A DNA stretch of 64,000 nucleotides from Bacteroidota bacterium (GTDB lineage Bacteria; Bacteroidota; Bacteroidia; JACCXN01): positions 67,592 to 131,591 of the forward strand of contig JACCXN010000010.1 in the NCBI GenBank assembly GCA_013696965.1. The letters are read 5' to 3'. The position numbers were made by a program, and so were the translations under genes. Shown here piece after piece: positions 2,485 through 42,244 of the stretch (its first letter is position 1; each line of letters begins with the position of its first letter). The notes beneath the pieces are model-generated. The model searched no databases and was not told the DNA's origin. It worked only from the letters and a program-made list of their open reading frames with translations.

Positions 2485-3255
2485 CTATTTTTCAGGTGAC
2501 TGAGTGATGAAAATATCTACAGGAGAGCCCATGTTTATCATTGATTCACTGCTAAATTGTGGAATTTGCTTATATACTCTTGCTTGGGTAGAATCTTTTA
2601 CCGTTTCATCTTTTATTACGGAACCCAGGTTTAAGGAACTGGCAAATAAGGCTTCAATAGCCTCTGCATAGGTAAGATTTAATAAGTTTGGTAATAAAAC
2701 CATTTCATCACTTACTCCTTTGCCTAAAACAAGATCAATGGAAGAACCCCGGAAGATTTCTTTCCCCGGTTCAATTTTCATTCCTTTAAATTCTTGTGAT
2801 AGCACTGCATTGTGGGCAATATCAGGAATGTACTTTAAATTTCCTACAACCAAACCTGCAGATTCAATAATTGCAATTGCTTGTCTTAATGAAAAATCAA
2901 TAAGATCAGGCATTTTAACTTTTGGTGGTGTTTTTGTATTAATGGTTAAATAAAGCATCCGCTGTTCCTTAACCTGCAAATCGGCCTTTGGCTCCTGATC
3001 AATTACTATCCCCGGTTTGCTTTTGCTGTCGTAAACAGAGTCTACAATGATATATCTAAAACCTTTTTGATTTAATATTTGATCCAATTCCTCTGCTTGA
3101 TATCCCCTTAATTCAGGAACTGTAATTGTTTCACCATGCAAAGTATAGGAACTAAGGAACTGAAGCACTACCCAGGAAAGCGTAGCCAATAAAAAGAGAG
3201 CAGCAAAAAGATTAATAAAAAAGATCTTACTAATTAAAAATCTAAAAAAATTCAT
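2485..3255 (-). CDS. PASTA-domain membrane protein
   Basis: A 256-residue protein with a single N-terminal membrane anchor (residues about 9-35, very hydrophobic) followed by three PASTA modules outside the membrane: T-V-P-E-L-R-G near 40, K-M-P-D-L-I near 115, and L-L-P-N-L-L near 188, each with the G-L/K-G-F beta-alpha-beta pattern. PASTA modules bind uncrosslinked peptidoglycan or muropeptides in PBPs and Ser/Thr kinases; there is no kinase or transpeptidase domain here. The gene lies 118 bases downstream of the D-Ala-D-Ala ligase and upstream of the RluA gene. I recall this gene order from other Bacteroidota, and it fits a wall-sensing or scaffolding role. The exact function is not known to me. 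Confidence 0.85.
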   Translation of the reverse strand: MNFFRFLISKIFFINLFAALFLLATLSWVVLQFLSSYTLHGETITVPELRGYQAEELDQILNQKGFRYIIVDSVYDSKSKPGIVIDQEPKADLQVKEQRMLYLTINTKTPPKVKMPDLIDFSLRQAIAIIESAGLVVGNLKYIPDIAHNAVLSQEFKGMKIEPGKEIFRGSSIDLVLGKGVSDEMVLLPNLLNLTYAEAIEALFASSLNLGSVIKDETVKDSTQARVYKQIPQFSSESMINMGSPVDIFITQSPEK

Positions 3256-3373: not shown

Positions 3374-6055
3374 CTACTTTAACAATGCCTGTTTACTAAA
3401 AGCAAACTCAATTATTTTATCAATAAAATCAATGGGTTTATAATGATTTAATGCGCTCTGATGAAAAATACAAGTAGCGGGAGTCATTCCAGGCAAGGAA
3501 TTTACTTCAATAAAAACTACTTCTACTTTACTGCTGTTGTATATCCTAACAAAGGCATCTATTCTACAATATCCCTGAATATTTAGTATTCTGGCGGCTG
3601 AACCTAATTTCTCCTTAACTATTTCAGAAATTGCCTGTCGTTCCAAAGGGTTAGAGGCATATCGAGCCGGTGTTATATTCTGACCTTGTCCTGCAAGGAA
3701 TTTTTCCTCAAGGGACAATACTTCTCCTTCTGAAAGCGCTTCAGATGCTTCAAACACTTCATAAATGATCTTTCCAGAATCATCAAATTTAGTTAACATC
3801 CCTCCTGTAATTTCCAAAAAATGCTTTGAATCTTTCCTTGAAATTAATTCTTCAACCAGAAATACATTTTTTACAGGAAATTCTTCCTTTGGTTTTATTT
3901 GCAATAGAAATGCACTTTGGGAATCAAATTCATTTTCGTTCCTGAAAATCAGCTTGGCAAAGGCCAATAATTCATCTTTGTTTTTTATTTTTTTTACAGC
4001 TGAACTACATCCATCGTCAACAGGTTTGGCAATAAAAGGGAATTCAATCCTGGCCGCTATTTTCTCTATTTCTTGCTGTGGATTATTCTCCCAATCCTGC
4101 TTTTGCACCAACAAATGTTCAGCAATAAGAAATCCATTTTGTTTTAAAATTTCATTCGTAACAAATTTATTAATTGTTATTTGCGAACTCTCCACATCTG
4201 AACCATTAAAGGGTAAATTCACCCTGTTTAATTCCACTTGTACTGCTCCATCCTCCCCTGGTCTTCCATGAAGGGCTATAAATACAGCATCTGCTCTTTC
4301 AGCCAATTCTTTGTAATTTATTTTCGAAGGTTTAGCAAGACTTCCGGCAGAAGAATAACGATTGGTAATTGTTTTGCATTCTTCAATAATTTCGGCTATC
4401 GTAGCATGCGTTTCATAATGATCAATTTTTTCTTTAATATCATCCGCATTATCCTTTAAAAGAATGTTTACAGGAATCTGATATAACTTATGTTCGTTTT
4501 CATCTCCTGTTAAGAATATTGGGAGCGGATCATATTTTATGGATGATGCAAGTTTTTCATAAATATTTCTGCCGCTTTCCACTGAAATATGTCTTTCAGA
4601 GGAAAAGCCTCCGAGTAAAACCGCAATTTTCTTTTTTTCCTCTCCAGAGGTTTCAGTATTCAGTGCCTTATCAAGCTTGTGTAACAGTTTTTTTGCATTT
4701 AACGCATGCTTGCCTTTTAAGGAACGTTGCAGGAGGGAAGTGCGGATAATATAACTAAGAAATTGTGAAGGGTTTAGTCCTATTTCAGCAGCCTGGTGAA
4801 AAAAGAATGAAGAAGGCATCATTCCAGAAGTTGTGTTTGGGTCATTCAGGAAAACTTTATCGTTTGAAATAAAGCCATCAATGCGGGCATAAACATCAAA
4901 ATTTAAATAATGAAATAGCCTTTCACATTCCTGTCTTATAGCCTGTATTTGATCGGCAGGAACATCGATTGGTGTAATTTTCCTGGATAAGCCAGGCAGG
5001 TATTTACTGCGGTAATCAAACAGCTCATTCCCTTTTCTGATTTCGGTTGGTGGAAGTGCAATTGCCTTTTTACCTTCTCCCTCGTTTTGAATAACTATGC
5101 AGGAAAACTCTTTCCCTTTTATAAACTGCTCAATAATAACCTCTGCTTCCCCATCAAGTGCTTCGAGTAAAATATTTTCTTGTTCATCCAGATTCTTATT
5201 TAAGAAATCAATCAGCTCATCTGGGTGATAAATAACCACCTCCCCTACTCTTACAGGAATTCCGATTCCTTCACGAATATCAGTTAAAACCCGGATAAAT
5301 TCTATTTTCTCTGAATCATTTAATTTGCTCCACGCATTCCCGCTTAATTCAGAAGTAAAAAAGCTTCTGTTTACAGCCTGTTCGAATTCAATTTCATTAC
5401 TGGCATTAATAATACTCACTCCAATTGAAGAGCCTTGCGTTGCTGATTTTACAACCAAAGGAAAAGCTATTTTTTCTTTGGCTTTTTCAAAAAAAGATTT
5501 GCTACCAGATCTAAACCATTCGTGCCTATCAATAATAAAAAATTCTGGACCAGCAAAACCTCCATCCCTCATCAGACTCTTTTGAATAACCTTGTCGATT
5601 CCTATTGCGGAGGGCAAAATTCCTGAACCTGAATAAGGCATTCCAATATAATCCAACAATCCCTGAATTTTTCCATCCTCTCCCATTGGGCCATGTAAAG
5701 CAAGAAAAGCGAAATCGATGTAATTACTCAATTGCTCAACAGGAATGCGTTTTCCTATTTTATTAATAAGTTCTTCTTGTTTTTCAAGGCTTAAATCACC
5801 TAGGCATTCAGAATACACCTGGAAATCACCATTAGAATAAGGGATGCAATCCACAGGAGGATAAAAATCCCGAATACTTCCTTTGTAAATAAATTCCCAG
5901 TTTAGTAGAACAAAATTGTCAAAACTGTCAATGAAAACAGGTACAGCATCAAATAATGATTTATTCAGGTTGTCATAAACAGTTCTGCCACCGGCAAAGG
6001 AAATTTCCCGTTCTTTTGAACTACCACCGAAAAAAATTCCTGTTTTAATTTTCAT
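3374..6055 (-). CDS. Tandem (two-copy) D-alanine--D-alanine ligase
   Basis: A protein of 893 residues, more than twice the normal Ddl length of about 310-370, made of two head-to-tail Ddl modules (about 1-455 and 474-893) with a short charged linker. Ddl joins two D-Ala with ATP for peptidoglycan. Both modules have the N-terminal G-G-x-S-x-E-R motif (E15, E487), the A-L-H-G-x-x-G-E-D-G motif (119-128, 594-603) and the ATP-grasp metal site (R-I-D at 391-393 and 831-833). Module 1 keeps the Q-G-S-S loop (207-210) and the omega-loop tyrosines F-D-Y-R-S-K-Y (346-352), but has D405-P-N407 where E-x-N is usual. Module 2 has a canonical E850-V-N852 and P-G-M-T, but its loop reads D-G-C-S and the tyrosine motif is missing. 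Module 1 looks like a near-complete ligase; module 2 may have another substrate or be regulatory. A minus-strand TATCTTTG box at 6170-6177 may drive it. Confidence 0.9.
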   Translation of the reverse strand: MKIKTGIFFGGSSKEREISFAGGRTVYDNLNKSLFDAVPVFIDSFDNFVLLNWEFIYKGSIRDFYPPVDCIPYSNGDFQVYSECLGDLSLEKQEELINKIGKRIPVEQLSNYIDFAFLALHGPMGEDGKIQGLLDYIGMPYSGSGILPSAIGIDKVIQKSLMRDGGFAGPEFFIIDRHEWFRSGSKSFFEKAKEKIAFPLVVKSATQGSSIGVSIINASNEIEFEQAVNRSFFTSELSGNAWSKLNDSEKIEFIRVLTDIREGIGIPVRVGEVVIYHPDELIDFLNKNLDEQENILLEALDGEAEVIIEQFIKGKEFSCIVIQNEGEGKKAIALPPTEIRKGNELFDYRSKYLPGLSRKITPIDVPADQIQAIRQECERLFHYLNFDVYARIDGFISNDKVFLNDPNTTSGMMPSSFFFHQAAEIGLNPSQFLSYIIRTSLLQRSLKGKHALNAKKLLHKLDKALNTETSGEEKKKIAVLLGGFSSERHISVESGRNIYEKLASSIKYDPLPIFLTGDENEHKLYQIPVNILLKDNADDIKEKIDHYETHATIAEIIEECKTITNRYSSAGSLAKPSKINYKELAERADAVFIALHGRPGEDGAVQVELNRVNLPFNGSDVESSQITINKFVTNEILKQNGFLIAEHLLVQKQDWENNPQQEIEKIAARIEFPFIAKPVDDGCSSAVKKIKNKDELLAFAKLIFRNENEFDSQSAFLLQIKPKEEFPVKNVFLVEELISRKDSKHFLEITGGMLTKFDDSGKIIYEVFEASEALSEGEVLSLEEKFLAGQGQNITPARYASNPLERQAISEIVKEKLGSAARILNIQGYCRIDAFVRIYNSSKVEVVFIEVNSLPGMTPATCIFHQSALNHYKPIDFIDKIIEFAFSKQALLK

Positions 6056-12798: not shown

Positions 12799-14625
12799 AT
12801 GTGTGGAATTTCCGGAATATTATCTTTCAACAAAAAAATTGAAGCTGTATCTTTAAAGAAAATGATTGATACACTTGATCATAGAGGCCCTGATGGAGAA
12901 GGTATCTGGTTAAATGAAAAACAGCAGGTAGGATTAGGGCATAAACGGCTTTCAATTATAGATTTAACTGATTCAGGAAAGCAGCCCATGCATTATTGTA
13001 ATGGTCGGTATTCTATTACTTTTAATGGAGAAATATATAATTATATAGAAATTAGAGAAAACTTAATAAAACAAGGTTTTAAATTTGTATCAAATTCTGA
13101 TACAGAAGTGTTACTTGCTCTTTATGAGTATAAAAAAGAAAAGGCGCTGGAAGATTTGGATGGGATGTTTGCTTTTGCAATTTGGGATGAAAAGGAACAA
13201 ACTTTATTTTGTGCAAGGGACAGGTTTGGTGAAAAGCCTTTCTTTTATCACCGTGATAAAAGTACTTTTTCATTTGCTTCGGAAATGAAAGCCCTTTTTC
13301 AATTTATTGGTAAAAGAAATATTGACAACAAACATATTTACAATTATTTTCTGTATAGTATTATTGAAGATCCGAATAATCCAACTACAACCTTTTTTCA
13401 GGATATTCATCAGCTCCCTCCAGCACATTATATAGTTATTGACAGCAATAATAATATGACTGGAAGAAAGTATTGGGATGTTGATTTAAATTACCAGGTA
13501 AATTATTCAATAGAAGAAGCTAAAGAAAAATTCATCTCTTTATTCACCCAATCCATTACCAGAAGGCTTCGAAGCGATGTGACTGTTGGAAGCAGCTTGT
13601 CAGGAGGAATTGATTCCTCCAGTATAGTAATGATGATTGATCGATTGAAAGGAACGGGCCAAATTCAAAAAACCTTTTCAGCAAGATTTCATAATTTCGA
13701 AAAAGATGAGGGGAAATTTATGGAAATGGTAATTAAAAATAGCAAGGTTGAACCACATTATGTTTACCCAACTGCTGAATCAGCGTTAGAGAATCTTCAA
13801 AAAATAATGTACCATCAGGAAATGCCCTTTGGCAGTACCAGCATTGCAGCACAATACGAGGTAATGAAACTTGCCAGAGAAAATAAAGTAACAGTACTTT
13901 TGGATGGGCAAGGTGCGGATGAATATCTTGCAGGCTATTCAAATTACTGGCCTTCTTATTTAATGCAGTTATATCGTGAAAACAGAAATAAATTTCATCA
14001 GGTAAATCAACATTTAAAATCTCTTCATAATTTTGATAGCTTAGAACAAAATTTTGATTTTAAGCTAAAAACATATAGCTATGCTGCTTATAAAAAATAT
14101 GGAGATATTATGCGTAGGTATAAAAATCCTTCTTCGGATTATTTTATGGGTTTAAATCCTGAAATCACAAGACAATATCAGTCTGGAAGAAATCCTTTAT
14201 ACAAACCACCTCATCTCAAGAAACAACTATACCAGTCAACGCTCAAAACTGACCTGGCCAATTTGTTGAGATATGCGGATAGAAATTCAATGGCAAACTC
14301 CATTGAAGTAAGACTCCCTTTCTTGTCACATAAACTTGTAGAATTTGTATTTAGCTTGAATGATGATTTTAAAATAAATAATGGCTGGACAAAGTATATT
14401 CTAAGAAAAAGCATGGAAGGCATTCTCCCCGATGAAATAACATGGAGAAAAGATAAAATAGGTTATGAACCTCCTCAACAAGAATGGTTAAATAAAAATG
14501 CTTTTCAGAGCTTGTTTAAGGAAGCTGCGGAAGACTTAAAAAAGGACAGAATAATTACAAAAGAATCAGACATGCTAAACTGGTCATACTTGATGATTTA
14601 TTTACTGAAAAAATCTTTTAATTAA
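12799..14625 (+). CDS. asnB: Asparagine synthetase-like glutamine amidotransferase, copy 1
   Basis: 608 residues, two domains. The N-terminal class II glutaminase begins M-C-G-I-S-G; Cys2 is the nucleophile after Met removal, and R-L-S-I-I-D-L and N-G-E-I-Y-N-Y are the glutamine-site segments. The C-terminal synthetase domain has the PP-loop S-G-G-I-D-S-S at 268-274 and D-G-Q-G-A-D-E-Y-L-A-G-Y near 370-381. The textbook reaction is Asp + Gln + ATP to Asn, but homologues in polysaccharide loci are thought to amidate sugar acids or related carboxylates. Here it lies between glycosyltransferases, so an envelope role is at least as likely as amino-acid supply. The stop overlaps the next start by one base (TAATG). 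Confidence 0.9.
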   Translation: MCGISGILSFNKKIEAVSLKKMIDTLDHRGPDGEGIWLNEKQQVGLGHKRLSIIDLTDSGKQPMHYCNGRYSITFNGEIYNYIEIRENLIKQGFKFVSNSDTEVLLALYEYKKEKALEDLDGMFAFAIWDEKEQTLFCARDRFGEKPFFYHRDKSTFSFASEMKALFQFIGKRNIDNKHIYNYFLYSIIEDPNNPTTTFFQDIHQLPPAHYIVIDSNNNMTGRKYWDVDLNYQVNYSIEEAKEKFISLFTQSITRRLRSDVTVGSSLSGGIDSSSIVMMIDRLKGTGQIQKTFSARFHNFEKDEGKFMEMVIKNSKVEPHYVYPTAESALENLQKIMYHQEMPFGSTSIAAQYEVMKLARENKVTVLLDGQGADEYLAGYSNYWPSYLMQLYRENRNKFHQVNQHLKSLHNFDSLEQNFDFKLKTYSYAAYKKYGDIMRRYKNPSSDYFMGLNPEITRQYQSGRNPLYKPPHLKKQLYQSTLKTDLANLLRYADRNSMANSIEVRLPFLSHKLVEFVFSLNDDFKINNGWTKYILRKSMEGILPDEITWRKDKIGYEPPQQEWLNKNAFQSLFKEAAEDLKKDRIITKESDMLNWSYLMIYLLKKSFN

Positions 14626-18924: not shown

Positions 18925-20805
18925 ATGTGTGGAATAACTGGATTTTATGCATTTAAGGGGAGCCTTCCGGAAGTTGATTTCAAAAAATTCAACGATCTGT
19001 TGATTCATCGGGGTCCTGATTCCCAAGGAGTTTTTTCCGATGATTCGATTTTTTTGGGTCATACCCGGTTAAGTATTCTTGATCTCTCAGCAAGTGGAAA
19101 CCAGCCCATGACCTCGCATAATGGAAGGTTTGTGATGGTTTACAACGGTGAAATTTACAATTACAGGGATATTGCAAATGAAATAAAAACGCATACTTCA
19201 CAAGAGGATACTATCCTTTTCAATTCATCCTCTGACACTGAAGTAATTCTGGAAGCTTTTGTTTTATGGGGCCCTGAATTTGTTCATAGATTAAATGGCA
19301 TGTTTTCAATAGCAATCTATGACACCATTGATAAAGAATTATTTCTTTTCAGAGATCGGCTAGGAATAAAACCTCTTTATTACTGCTTACATGAAGATAC
19401 AATTGTATTTTCCTCTGAATTAAAAGCTATTCAGTCCTTGGATTTTATCCCTAAAACACTTAACAAAGCAGCTATTTTCAATTTCCTCAATCTAGGTTAC
19501 ATCCCTGCTCCCCATTCCATTTACAATGAAATAAAAAAATTGCAATCCGGCTGTTATCTCAAAATAAATTCAGCAGGTTCCGAATCAATTAAGTACTGGA
19601 ACCTATATTCTCAACTTACTGACGAGGTAATCCATGAGGAAAAAAAGGCTCTTATTTTATTGAGTGATCTTCTTGTAAGTTCGGTGCAATATCAATTAAA
19701 AAGCGATGTTCCGGTTGGAATTTTTTTAAGTGGTGGAATTGATTCAAGTTTAATAGCAGCTCAAGCAGCAGGTTTATCTTCCACTCAAATTAATACTTTT
19801 TCAATTGGTTTTGAAAACAATAAGAGCAATGAAACACCTTATGCCCGAAAAGTTGCCCAACAGCTTAAGACTTGCCATTCTGATCTGATTGTTTCTGAGA
19901 AAGAAGCATTTGGATATTTTGAAGAATTAACTTCAGTTTATGATGAACCTTTTTCTGATTCCTCTGCAATTCCGGCAATGATTATATCGAAATTAGCTAA
20001 AGGTTCAGTTACCGTAACACTTTCGGGAGAAGGGGGTGATGAATTGTTTTTTGGTTATGGCTCCTATAAATGGGCAGAAAGATTAGATAATTCAATAGTC
20101 CGAAATATAGGTAAGTCCTTATATCCTGTTCTAAATAAAACTAGTAACAATAGATTAAAGCGGGCTGTTAATCTATTTAATTATTCAAGTAATGCTCGAA
20201 TTATGAGGCATATATTTTCTCAGGAGCAATATAATTTTTCAGATAAAGAGATTACTTCATTATTAGAAAAGAATTACAAAAACATTTCCTGGGACTTGAA
20301 TGAAAACCCTTATATAAAACTAAATAAAAGGAAGTTGCAGGCATCTGAAAAACAAGCCTTATTTGATTTGGAATATTATCTGCAAGATGACCTTTTAACC
20401 AAGGTTGACAGGGCAAGCATGAAATATTCAGTTGAAACAAGGGTTCCTTTTCTTGATCATAGGGTTGTTGAATTTGCTTTAAATATTTCACCTGAATTGA
20501 AAATTAAAAATGGTGTTTCTAAATATTTATTAAAGGAAATATTGTATCAATACCTTCCTAAAGAACTATTTAACCGTCCAAAACAAGGGTTTTCTATTCC
20601 ATTGGGAAAATGGTTGAAAGGGGGATTATTTAGTAATTTGATAGAAATGTATTTATCAGAAGAAACAGTGAAACATTTTGGTATTGTTAATCATCTTAAG
20701 GTAAAAGAGCTTATTTTTCGTTTTAAAAATGGGGAAGACTATTTGTACCAGAGGATTTGGTTACTTATTACCCTCCATAAGTGGTTAAAACAAAACCACA
20801 ATTGA
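18925..20805 (+). CDS. asnB: Asparagine synthetase-like glutamine amidotransferase, copy 2
   Basis: 626 residues with Cys2 (M-C-G-I-T-G), glutamine-site R-L-S-I-L-D-L and N-G-E-I-Y-N-Y, and PP-loop F-L-S-G-G-I-D-S-S (267-275). Its acceptor-domain motif is S-G-E-G-G-D-E-L-F-F-G-Y, the form typical of standard AsnB, whereas copies 1 and 3 have D-G-Q-G-A-D-E-Y-L. This places it in a different subgroup from the other two. Whether it makes asparagine or amidates a polysaccharide component is open. It is the last plus-strand gene before the convergent membrane gene at 20828. Confidence 0.9.
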   Translation: MCGITGFYAFKGSLPEVDFKKFNDLLIHRGPDSQGVFSDDSIFLGHTRLSILDLSASGNQPMTSHNGRFVMVYNGEIYNYRDIANEIKTHTSQEDTILFNSSSDTEVILEAFVLWGPEFVHRLNGMFSIAIYDTIDKELFLFRDRLGIKPLYYCLHEDTIVFSSELKAIQSLDFIPKTLNKAAIFNFLNLGYIPAPHSIYNEIKKLQSGCYLKINSAGSESIKYWNLYSQLTDEVIHEEKKALILLSDLLVSSVQYQLKSDVPVGIFLSGGIDSSLIAAQAAGLSSTQINTFSIGFENNKSNETPYARKVAQQLKTCHSDLIVSEKEAFGYFEELTSVYDEPFSDSSAIPAMIISKLAKGSVTVTLSGEGGDELFFGYGSYKWAERLDNSIVRNIGKSLYPVLNKTSNNRLKRAVNLFNYSSNARIMRHIFSQEQYNFSDKEITSLLEKNYKNISWDLNENPYIKLNKRKLQASEKQALFDLEYYLQDDLLTKVDRASMKYSVETRVPFLDHRVVEFALNISPELKIKNGVSKYLLKEILYQYLPKELFNRPKQGFSIPLGKWLKGGLFSNLIEMYLSEETVKHFGIVNHLKVKELIFRFKNGEDYLYQRIWLLITLHKWLKQNHN

Positions 20806-24764: not shown

Positions 24765-26557
24765 ATGAGAATTGAAAAAGAAAAAGTGGTTTTGATAGTT
24801 TTAATTTATGTGTATTTTTTATTACTGTTTCCAATTCTTTCGGTAATACTATTTATACAGTATGTAATGGAAATTGGGACAACCCAAATATATGGCAAGG
24901 TGGAACTTTACCTACAGCAGGAGACTCTATTTTTATCATTCACAAGGTTAAATTAACATCAAATCTTAGTTTGATCAACAATTTTTTGAGCATTTCAACT
25001 AACTCAGAGGTATGTGGACTTTTTACCCTTAATGTTGATGCTGGATCTTTTGTAATTATTAATGGGAGTGCTCGATTAAAAGGAGTTAGCATCTATGGTC
25101 AAGTGACTATCAATGGGTCCTTAGCGACAAATTCTCTTGCTGTGAATGGTTTACTAATTAATAATGGTATTTTAGTAAATGGTTGGAATGGCGTTTGTGC
25201 TGCTATAAGCAGTTCAACTATAAATGCAACGACTTGTAACAGTTATACTTCTCCTAGTGGTAATTATGTCTGGACTTCTTCAGGTATTTATATGGATACT
25301 ATTTCAAGTTCTACTGGTTGTGATTCTATCCTAACTGTTAACCTGACGATCAATAATAGTAGTGTAACTGTTAATAAAATGGCTTGTAATAGCTACACTT
25401 CACCAAGTGGCAACTATATCTGGACTATTTCAGGCTCCTATATTGACACAATTCCTACTGCTTTTGGTTGTGATTCTGTCATCACTATAAACCTAACTAT
25501 CAATGACAATAGTTCTGTGATTATAAATGAAACAGCTTGTGCCAGTTACTCCTCTCCTAGCGGTAATCATATTTGGACCTCCACAGGCTCTTATATTGAT
25601 ACTATTCCAAATAATTCAGGATGCGATTCTGTTATAACAATAAATCTAATTGTAATTGACAACAGTTTTGTGACCATTAATAAAACTGTTTGTGCCAACT
25701 ACACTTCGCCAAGTAACAACTATTATTGGTCTTCTTCAGGTACTTATACTGATACTATTTCCAGTGCTTCCGGTTGTGATTCTATTATTACTGTCAACTT
25801 GACTATTAATAATGTCATTTCAACCATTAGCGTAACAGCCTGTGTCAGTTACACTTCTCCAAGTGGAAACTATATATGGACTACTTCTGGTACATTTACC
25901 GACACTATTCCAACTTCATTCGGTTGCGATTCTATCCTAATTATCAATCTGATTATTGATAATAGCCCTGTAACACTGAATGAAACGGCTTGTATAAGTT
26001 TTACTTCCCCAAGCGGAAACTATAGCTGGACATCTTCAGGAACTTATTTTGATACTATTCAAACTTCTTTAGGTTGTGATTCAATCCTAATAATCAATCT
26101 TATTATTAATAATAGCCCTGTAACAATATATAAAACGACCTGTATAAGTTTTACATCCCCAAGCGGAAGTTATACCTGGACAGCTTCAGGAACTTATTTT
26201 GATACTATTCCAACAGCTTTCGGTTGCGATTCAATTATAACTGTGGAACTTATAATTAGTGATGAGAATAAATATGATTTTCAAATACCTAATGTGTTTA
26301 CACCTAATGATGATGGTATAAATGATACATTTATAATTAATTATGAAGGTGTTTTAATAAATTTAGATTTAAAAATTTATACTAGATGGGGAACCTTGAT
26401 TTTTCAAGGTGGAATTGATGATTACTGGAAGGGCGATACTCCTTCGGGAAATAAATCTCCAGAAGGAGTATATTTTTATGTAGTACAATCTAAAATAGAG
26501 ATTTGTGACGAAATAACTCCACATTTTTTTCAAGGCACAGTCTCTTTATTGCGATAA
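24765..26557 (+). CDS. T9SS type B repeat protein with apparent -1 frameshift in the signal peptide
   Basis: The body of the gene is open in one frame from about 24776 to 26557 but has no ATG there that includes the secretion signal. A second frame supplies ATG 24765 and a good signal peptide start (M-R-I-E-K-E-K-V-V-L-I-V-L-I). The two frames join by a -1 step at T-TTT-TTA (24815-24821), a perfect slippery heptamer in the zero frame, giving a 597-residue product. After the join come G-N-W-D-N-P-N-I-W, then seven 50-residue repeats, then the T9SS type B tail: I-P-N-V-F-T-P-N-D-D-G-I-N-D near 515-528 of the joined protein, R-W-G-T-L-I-F, and a final G-T-V-S-L-L. The cause could be a one-T loss, phase variation or a read error. 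If the signal frame is not used, an internal TTG at 24971 gives a 528-residue protein without export signal. Confidence 0.72.
24815..24821 (+). other. T6A slippery heptamer joining two reading frames
   Basis: The bases TTTTTTA are in phase T-TTT-TTA relative to ATG 24765. A one-base backward slip here moves translation exactly into the frame of the repeat protein, with no stop between. The phase-0 frame otherwise stops at 24956. Confidence 0.6.
25228..26272 (+). repeat. Seven in-frame tandem repeats of 150-153 bases
   Basis: The Cys codon that opens each unit lies at 25235, 25385, 25538, 25691, 25841, 25991 and 26141, giving spacings of 150, 153, 153, 150, 150 and 150. Each unit encodes about 50 residues with the frame C-x-S-Y-T-S-P-S-G-N-Y, then W-T-x-S-G-x-Y-x-D-T-I, then G-C-D-S-I and N-L-x-I-N. 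Two conserved cysteines per unit could form a disulfide outside the cell. The copies are diverged in DNA but strict in length, which suggests old duplications kept for structure. Confidence 0.93.
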
Positions 26558-40402: not shown

Positions 40403-42244
40403 TTAATTATTCTTCAACCACATATTCAAAACAACTATACGCCAAACTAGTTTAGCTTTGGAATTGTCACCATCTTTATACCTTTTAATGGTTTCATAAA
40501 GACCTTTCCTTGAAAACCAATATTCAAGTTTGGAGAAATCTTCATCCAGCAAATGCTTCAAGGGGCCCCTTAACCATTTGTTTTCCCCTGGGGTTACAAA
40601 ACCTTTTTTATCTTTTCTGTCTCGAATGGCATCCGGCAAAACTCCACTTAATGATTTCCGTAGAATATATTTTGTTTCTGCACCCCTAATCCTATCTTCC
40701 AATGGAAGTGAAAAGCCATATTCTACCAGTCTATGATCAAGGAATGGAACTCTTGATTCCAATGAAAAGGCCATTGAATTTCGATCTTCATAATGTAACA
40801 GAGATGGAAGGCTGGTTGAAAAAAGCAGATTATAAAAAAAATTGTCGATTTTATTTGGGTGTGCATCCAAAAGATCAATTATTCCACTCATATCTTTGAA
40901 TTTACTATTCAATAAAGATTTGATTCGGTTTAATTCAAAATTAAAAACACCAGCTTCATTATGACTGGAGGTGTAAATGGATTTCAACAAAGTCATTGCA
41001 ACTTCTTTGCCTGACAACCCATGTTCTTTTTTATGCAACTGAAGAAGCTTAATGGCTTTGAAAAACTCTCTATTATGGAAATGACTTCCAATAATCCGGT
41101 TAAAAGTATGCATATAACCCCCTAGGTACTCATCAGCCCCCTGCCCATCAAGCAAAACAGTAACCTTATTTTGTTTTGCAAGATTCATTACAAAATATTG
41201 TGATATCGCTGATGAGCCTGAAATTGGCGCATCCTGATGGAATAAAACCTTATTAAGGGCATCGGCCAGTTCATCATCTTTTGGAGAATAATAATAGGGC
41301 TCAATATTTTTATACTTTTTTACTAGTTCGTAAACAAAAGGTCTTTCATCAACCGCACCTGAACCTTCATAAAATATATTGAACGCTTTAATGTTTTTTT
41401 CAGGAAACATTTTGGCTGCCACAGACACTATGGAAGAACTATCAATCCCTCCACTCAGTGCTGCCCCAACTTCAACATCACTTCTGAAATGCATTTTTAT
41501 AGAATCTTCAAAAAGGGATTTAAATTTTTCTTTTCTTCCTTCAAAATTGTCTTCAGAAATTATTTGCTTTTGTGATAAATCCCAGTATCGTTTAATTTCT
41601 ACTTTGCCGTTTTTGAAAATCAGATTTGATGCTTCTGGCAAGGATTTTACTGATTCATAAAAGGTCTCATTCTTATAATCAACCCAACCTAATTGTAAAA
41701 GGCGAATTACCTGTCTGTTATTTATCTGGCCATCAAATAATGGGGATTTTTTAATTGCTTTTACTTCAGATGCAAAATAAAAAGCACCGGCTCCGGAAAC
41801 ATAATAAAAAGGCTTAATCCCAAACCTATCCCTTGAACAAAAAAGCACCCTTCTTACTTTATCCCAAATTGCAAAGGCCCACATTCCCATGAATTTTTGA
41901 ACACAATCTTCTCCCCAGGCTTTATATGCTGCAAGAATTACTTCAGTGTCGGAATGTGTAGAGAATTTATAGCCAAGGCTTAAAAGCTCCTCTTTAATCT
42001 CCAGGTAATTGTAAATTTCTCCATTGAAAGAAATTACATAATCCTCATAATGTAAGGGTTGATTAGAGTTTTCGGTAAGATCAATAATACTTAGTCGGTT
42101 ATGACCTTGAGTTACGGGAAACTCGCTCCAATGACCACTGAAATCAGGGCCACGGTGAGCTATAGTCATAAGCATTTCTTTAATAAGATGATCTGCTTTT
42201 GAAGTGCTTAAGGAAGTATCAATAAAGCCTGCTATTCCGCACAT
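40403..42244 (-). CDS. asnB: Asparagine synthetase-like glutamine amidotransferase, copy 3
   Basis: 613 residues: M-C-G-I-A-G with nucleophile Cys2, N-G-E-I-Y-N-Y, PP-loop S-G-G-I-D-S-S at 264-270, and D-G-Q-G-A-D-E-Y-L-G-G-Y later. It shares the D-G-Q-G-A-D-E-Y-L motif with copy 1, not copy 2, so these two are likely a polysaccharide-associated subgroup. The gene follows a glycosyltransferase by 2 bases and is downstream of YfhO on the same strand, so it is probably in one operon with them. It may amidate a sugar acid rather than aspartate. Confidence 0.9.
   Translation of the reverse strand: MCGIAGFIDTSLSTSKADHLIKEMLMTIAHRGPDFSGHWSEFPVTQGHNRLSIIDLTENSNQPLHYEDYVISFNGEIYNYLEIKEELLSLGYKFSTHSDTEVILAAYKAWGEDCVQKFMGMWAFAIWDKVRRVLFCSRDRFGIKPFYYVSGAGAFYFASEVKAIKKSPLFDGQINNRQVIRLLQLGWVDYKNETFYESVKSLPEASNLIFKNGKVEIKRYWDLSQKQIISEDNFEGRKEKFKSLFEDSIKMHFRSDVEVGAALSGGIDSSSIVSVAAKMFPEKNIKAFNIFYEGSGAVDERPFVYELVKKYKNIEPYYYSPKDDELADALNKVLFHQDAPISGSSAISQYFVMNLAKQNKVTVLLDGQGADEYLGGYMHTFNRIIGSHFHNREFFKAIKLLQLHKKEHGLSGKEVAMTLLKSIYTSSHNEAGVFNFELNRIKSLLNSKFKDMSGIIDLLDAHPNKIDNFFYNLLFSTSLPSLLHYEDRNSMAFSLESRVPFLDHRLVEYGFSLPLEDRIRGAETKYILRKSLSGVLPDAIRDRKDKKGFVTPGENKWLRGPLKHLLDEDFSKLEYWFSRKGLYETIKRYKDGDNSKAKLVWRIVVLNMWLKNN

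Follow-up and report, generated by a model that had tools for sequence, protein, structure and literature searches.

Ddl, the D-Ala-D-Ala ligase, is an essential enzyme and an antibiotic target (D-cycloserine), and a locus of a Bacteroidota bacterium raises the question of what a cell does with two Ddl units in one protein and whether both units do the same work. The initial annotation of the window, that is, of the whole stretch of 64,000 nucleotides analysed here, had proposed that two D-Ala-D-Ala ligases are fused at this locus. Indeed, a single uninterrupted ORF with an ATG start (3374..6055, minus strand) codes for 893 amino acids and contains two complete Ddl units, with PF01820 found twice and PF07478 in both halves, all above the cut-off in a Pfam profile search. 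The gene, its parts and its neighbor are as follows.

3374..6055, minus strand: tandem Ddl gene, 893 aa, the sole Ddl of the genome (ORF and Pfam profiles)
4721..6055, minus strand: half 1 (residues 1-445), a complete Ddl unit whose catalytic residues are intact apart from D405 for E270 and S410 for P275
4637..4720, minus strand: linker (446-473), modelled as helical, of low conservation
3377..4636, minus strand: half 2 (residues 474-893), likewise a complete Ddl unit, C683 for Ser150 and F786 for Tyr216
2485..3255, minus strand: PASTA-domain gene, directly downstream of the tandem Ddl gene

The tandem Ddl gene and its genomic setting

Whether the genome also has a separate single-domain ddl, a question raised by the initial annotation, was answered by a Pfam profile search of the whole genome, in which no other gene contained a Ddl N-domain. 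The tandem protein is therefore the only Ddl of the cell, and a separate single-domain Ddl as the true worker was ruled out. The remaining ATP-grasp matches in the genome sit in ORFs of different sizes and, to judge from their length and MurF co-hits, would be of the biotin carboxylase, CPSase and cyanophycin-synthetase types. Two long frames matched the MurF profile as well as that of the Ddl C-domain (G000:C19:14892, 894 aa; G000:C9:115093, 873 aa), as expected of two cyanophycin synthetases. An assembly artefact or a frameshift read-through was ruled out as well, since a 40-68% identical protein of about equal length is present in 44 further genomes of the class.

In NCBIfam, the tandem protein falls in the general Ddl subfamilies and scores far short of all the Van-type and MurC-Ddl cut-offs shown. 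The curated cut-offs for VanA/VanB-type identity were missed (for VanA, 153.8 of 775 bits), and that for MurC-Ddl was far off (173 of 1015 bits). In the MurC-Ddl fusion (PRK14573/NF011171), Ddl is likewise fused to a ligase in one chain, but there the partner is a Mur ligase.

MurF is the enzyme that needs the dipeptide product of Ddl, and a normal MurF is present. Two MurF are encoded in the genome, one as a stand-alone protein (429 aa) and the other within an 829-aa frame (G000:C14:20635-21906, G000:C44:28973-30211), the latter frame being probably a MurF fused to an alanine racemase. The two MurF were considered as a sign of two dipeptides, but this was ruled out because most of the single-Ddl genomes tested, and of those of the family f58 described below, also have two; throughout the class, two MurF are common regardless of the type of Ddl. 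A member of the VanX-type peptidase family (PF01427) is present too, but it also occurs in a control Bacteroides and is uninformative.

A PASTA-domain gene lies downstream in 45 of the 74 tandem loci whose sequence extends far enough on that side and adjoins a single-domain ddl in 4 of 12. The tandem gene thus sits in a ddl neighborhood that is partly shared with single-domain ddl and gives no hint on half 2. Elsewhere in the window, positions 24971-26557 code for a protein that is predicted to be secreted, contains repeats of a 'C.SYTSPSGNY.WT.SGTY.DTI' unit and ends in a C-terminus of the gliding type, and three asparagine-synthase-like genes (12799-14625, 18925-20805 and 40403-42244) lie amid glycosyltransferase genes.

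The full-length tandem protein was modelled with a pTM of 0.89. The ranges 1-453 and 472-893 of the model match solved Ddls with Z of about 32-39, and both omega loops have low confidence. The packing of the two halves on each other would be dimer-like.

Active sites of the two halves

The segments considered here are listed below; active-site numbering is that of E. coli DdlB.

5417..5455, minus strand: half 1 serine loop (201-213, VVKSATQGSSIGV), S209 equivalent to Ser150
5156..5359, minus strand: half 1 insertion (about residues 233-300), not in E. coli Ddls, variable between species
4988..5026, minus strand: half 1 omega loop (344-356, ELFDYRSKYLPGL) with K351 and Y352
4808..4852, minus strand: half 1 metal/oxyanion segment (402-416, FLNDPNTTSGMMPSS), D405 for Glu and S410 for Pro
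4274..4636, minus strand: half 2 N-domain (474-594), the portion retained in family f58
3995..4027, minus strand: half 2 serine loop (677-687, KPVDDGCSSAV)
3737..3823, minus strand: half 2 lengthened strand-hairpin (745-773) ahead of the omega loop, exceeding aligned ordinary Ddls
3665..3718, minus strand: half 2 omega loop (780-797, LSLEEKFLAGQGQNITPA) with K785 and F786
3473..3514, minus strand: half 2 metal/oxyanion segment (848-861, FIEVNSLPGMTPAT), canonical Glu and Asn, Thr861 at the Ser281 position

Both halves have the fold and domain order of bacterial Ddl (DdlA/DdlB; TIGR01205, PF01820+PF07478), and both keep E15, H63, K97, K144, E180, E187, K215, R255, D257, N272 and G276. The E-R motif, HGxxGEDG and RID, which the initial annotation had listed for both halves, were all found in both. 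The tandem protein differs from bacterial Ddl in having two units per chain, with Asp/Ser for Glu270/Pro275 in half 1 and Cys/Phe for Ser150/Tyr216 in half 2.

Half 1 also has S150, Y216 and S281, and its triad is complete (E15, S209, Y352). Its metal site consists of D393, D405 and N407, with Asp replacing Glu; the DPN noted earlier for half 1 and the EVN for half 2 were both confirmed by alignment. A second change, overlooked before, is that the oxyanion-hole Gly lacks the preceding Pro (Ser410 for Pro275), the motif being TSGM instead of xPGM. One tandem protein (L186, genome G253) has an in-frame insertion with TEHQALSTKHQAPST in half 1 immediately ahead of FLNDPNTTSG, probably a DNA repeat insertion.

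Half 2 also has E270 and P275, and its metal site is complete (D833, E850, N852). Of the triad, E487 is kept, and C683 and F786 stand at the other two positions. The serine loop, given as D-G-C-S in the initial annotation, reads D-D-G-C-S-S, that is, Ser150 is replaced by Cys and Ser151 is kept. Two further changes place Thr861 at the Ser281 position and Cys862 at that of Leu282, which is Cys or Ala in tandem half 2. The tyrosine omega loop of half 2 had been described as gone. In fact the loop is present and highly conserved: with the alignment anchored by a Lys before it and an ITP motif after it, LSLEEKFLAGQG of half 2 pairs with FDYRSKYLPG, Lys215 is kept and only Tyr216 has become Phe786. 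When the omega loops of the two halves were aligned (FDYRSKYLPGLSRKITP in half 1 versus LSLEEKFLAGQGQNITP in half 2), the divergence was confined to the leading F-D-Y. Each half has its own signature, DPNTTSGM in half 1 and DDGCSS together with EEKFLAGQGQNITP in half 2.

The catalytic positions, unusual residues included, are essentially invariant across the tandem proteins. The equivalents of Cys683, Phe786, Asp405 and Ser410 are invariant in all full-length tandem sequences aligned, 45 unbiased ones found by a whole-protein search and 124 in all, where the 80 added sequences were found by peptide patterns including NDPNTTSG and HGRPGEDG and are not independent for D405 and S410. Ser150, Tyr216, Glu270 and Asn272 are present in 42/42 single-domain Ddls compared (40 from Bacteroidota, E. 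coli DdlA and DdlB), and Cys at the Ser150 position had no parallel among the Ddls compared here. Mean pairwise identity is 0.581 for half 2, 0.563 for half 1 and 0.198 for the linker, and 83 positions are invariant in half 2 versus 72 in half 1. Half 2 is conserved as strictly as half 1, which would not be expected of a dead half, and a decaying pseudogene domain was ruled out. Among its most conserved parts are the omega loop and the metal site (L780, E784-G789, N793-A797, E850, N852). An inactive half 2, one of the options in the initial annotation, is conceivable but unlikely, because the residues for ATP, Mg and the first D-Ala are invariant in all sequences.

Distribution, origin and natural loss of the half 2 ATP-grasp

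In a large part of the class, the tandem form is the rule. Among 99 related genomes, 47 carry it (3 of them split over contig ends), 49 have a single-domain Ddl, which is canonical, and 3 have neither. In 395 genomes of the class, the tandem form, counted where two strong N-domain matches were present, was found in about 40 of roughly 80 families; the D-Ala-D-Ala ligase of about half of the families sampled in this one large Bacteroidota class is a fused double protein. Named carriers include Pontibacter, Rufibacter, Adhaeribacter, Hymenobacter and Rhodocytophaga, next to many uncultured Bacteroidota. No tandem protein or half-2 match was found outside the class in 395 genomes of the phylum, none of the half-2 type was found in viral contigs in a search for close relatives, and plasmids gave only matches of <60%.

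In a tree of 87 rows, the half 1 sequences form one clade (support 100/99), as do the half 2 sequences (100/100), and the two clades pair with each other against all single Ddls (98/92). Since each half is one clade and both clades pair together, the tree is compatible with a single, ancient tandem duplication within this Bacteroidota class, although the pairing could be helped by the long stem branches of the half 1 and half 2 clades (1.3 and 2.0).

The catalytic part of half 2 has been lost in one family. In 40/41 genomes of family f58, the protein comprises half 1, the linker and the half 2 N-domain and ends before the half 2 ATP-grasp. The frames of these short proteins have about 555-680 codons, and one match is cut by a contig end. 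The three f58 genomes searched (G277, G334, G456) each gave one Ddl N-domain match, and a weak second N-domain match was seen in f58 genome G763. The f58 half 1 keeps E15, H63, K144, S150, K215, Y216, R255, D257, N272 and G276 and has D for E270 (the DPN motif), each in 13/13 aligned sequences; at the tandem Ser410 position it has the canonical Pro-Gly. A smaller tree left the branching order of f58 and tandem half 1 unsettled, as it did the direction of the Ser/Pro change.

Because f58 is without the half 2 ATP-grasp, half 1 alone can sustain the pathway, and the catalytic part of half 2 is not indispensable there; half 1 with Asp for Glu evidently suffices for cell-wall synthesis. From the single-copy status of the tandem gene and from f58, we infer that half 1 is active as a D-Ala-D-Ala ligase. 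In the leftover half 2 N-domain, the GG..ER motif is lost to varying degrees, and the f58 proteins L195-L204 and L183-L185 display a graded decay of this motif, from GGF to nothing, within one family. The leftover domain was nevertheless modelled as an ordered domain (pLDDT mostly 82-97; whole-model pTM 0.87). Since f58 keeps it as an ordered domain, the N-domain has a structural role, which would be that of a Ddl dimer partner. The earlier suggestion of a dimer made covalent thus receives indirect support: in f58, the half 2 N-domain is retained and modelled in a fixed place beside half 1.

The fixed changes are complementary, half 1 having the full triad and altered metal/oxyanion segments and half 2 the reverse, so that each active site might need the other half. 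The canonical Pro-Gly in half 1 of f58, where the catalytic part of half 2 is absent, would agree with such interdependence. However, in known Ddls each active site is formed within one protomer, f58 retains DPN and lives with half 1 and the N-domain, and the tree does not settle the direction of the Ser/Pro change. We regard interdependent halves as very improbable.

Possible roles of half 2

These findings may be explained if the tandem gene codes for an asymmetric dimer of covalently joined Ddl units, which originated in a single old tandem duplication in this class. Half 1 would be the housekeeping D-Ala-D-Ala ligase that supplies MurF, and the half 2 N-domain would be its built-in dimer partner. 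The half 2 ATP-grasp keeps every contact to ATP, Mg and the first D-Ala, whereas its acceptor side is altered in a fixed way (Cys for Ser150, Phe for Tyr216, Thr for Ser281, Cys/Ala for Leu282). Half 2 would then most likely still work as a ligase, one whose second substrate is different or broader. The chances that this explanation holds as a whole are about even.

The idea that half 2 may use another acceptor was already part of the initial annotation, and it stands: Phe at the Tyr216 position decides between depsipeptide and dipeptide formation in Ddls of lactic acid bacteria and marks the depsipeptide (D-Ala-D-Lac) enzymes (PMC5996685). Phe786 aligned with the Phe of the L. curvatus Ddl, and a crystal structure of the Y216F mutant of the E. 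coli enzyme contains ADP and a phosphoryl phosphinate (1iow). The Phe of D-Ala-D-Lac Ddls and the Y216F complex therefore argue for altered specificity rather than death, and on sequence grounds half 2 may be catalytic with another acceptor. The analogy is partial. The Phe-type D-Ala-D-Lac Ddls of Leuconostoc and Lactobacillus (1EHI) are single-domain proteins, half 2 is only distantly similar to the one aligned, and that enzyme keeps Ser150 in a GSS serine loop, whereas half 2 has Cys (GCS).

The Y216F complex could also mean that both halves make D-Ala-D-Ala, with Cys and Phe of half 2 as old, tolerated changes and the fusion serving only dose or dimer stability; every other catalytic residue of half 2 is kept. 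But the changes are fixed in 45/45 unbiased tandem proteins, against Ser and Tyr in 42/42 single-domain Ddls, and four acceptor-side positions changed together, which makes two identical activities improbable.

Alternatively, half 2 could be a regulatory pseudo-ligase that binds ATP and D-Ala without ligation and tunes half 1 to the supply. Half 2 departs from the triad at two of its three positions, half 1 keeps the triad in full, and half 1 of f58, with Pro at the tandem Ser410 position, differs too. If half 2 only bound its ligands, one would not expect the omega loop and the metal site, which serve catalysis beyond mere binding, to be among its most conserved parts. We consider a regulatory half 2 unlikely but a serious contender, and rank a half 2 that acts on another acceptor above it, though not by much.

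A fused DDL of two units is present throughout plants (PMC9954125), and the nearest homologues of the moss Ddl belong to the Fibrobacteres-Chlorobi-Bacteroidetes group (PMC9434261). By their published descriptions, on which our comparison is based, the plant proteins (Arabidopsis, Physcomitrella) resemble the tandem Ddl in having two Ddl units in one protein but differ in being eukaryotic and tied to plastid peptidoglycan. As a lead, the plant fusion has an obvious candidate ancestor in the bacterial tandem protein. No description of the bacterial tandem form was found in open-access papers, the subscription literature being outside the search, and in the cultured genera the tandem genes probably bear the simple annotation Ddl; the form can therefore be called undescribed only provisionally. 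A bolder proposal, rather unlikely in its entirety, is that half 2 acts as a second ligase of the peptidoglycan type and forms a product of its own (a D-Ala-D-X dipeptide or depsipeptide) and that, in addition, the plant fused DDL descends from the tandem protein. If it were true, a single protein would combine two linked ligase activities in a large part of the Bacteroidota.

In many Bacteroidota, the only Ddl is an asymmetric double enzyme, each half of which has fixed active-site changes of its own. With the natural deletion of the second catalytic site in f58, the fate of a duplicated Ddl half becomes directly testable. The answer bears on whether these Gram-negative bacteria have an unexpected cell-wall dipeptide and on whether the unexplained two-DDL fusion of plants came ready-made from such a bacterium.
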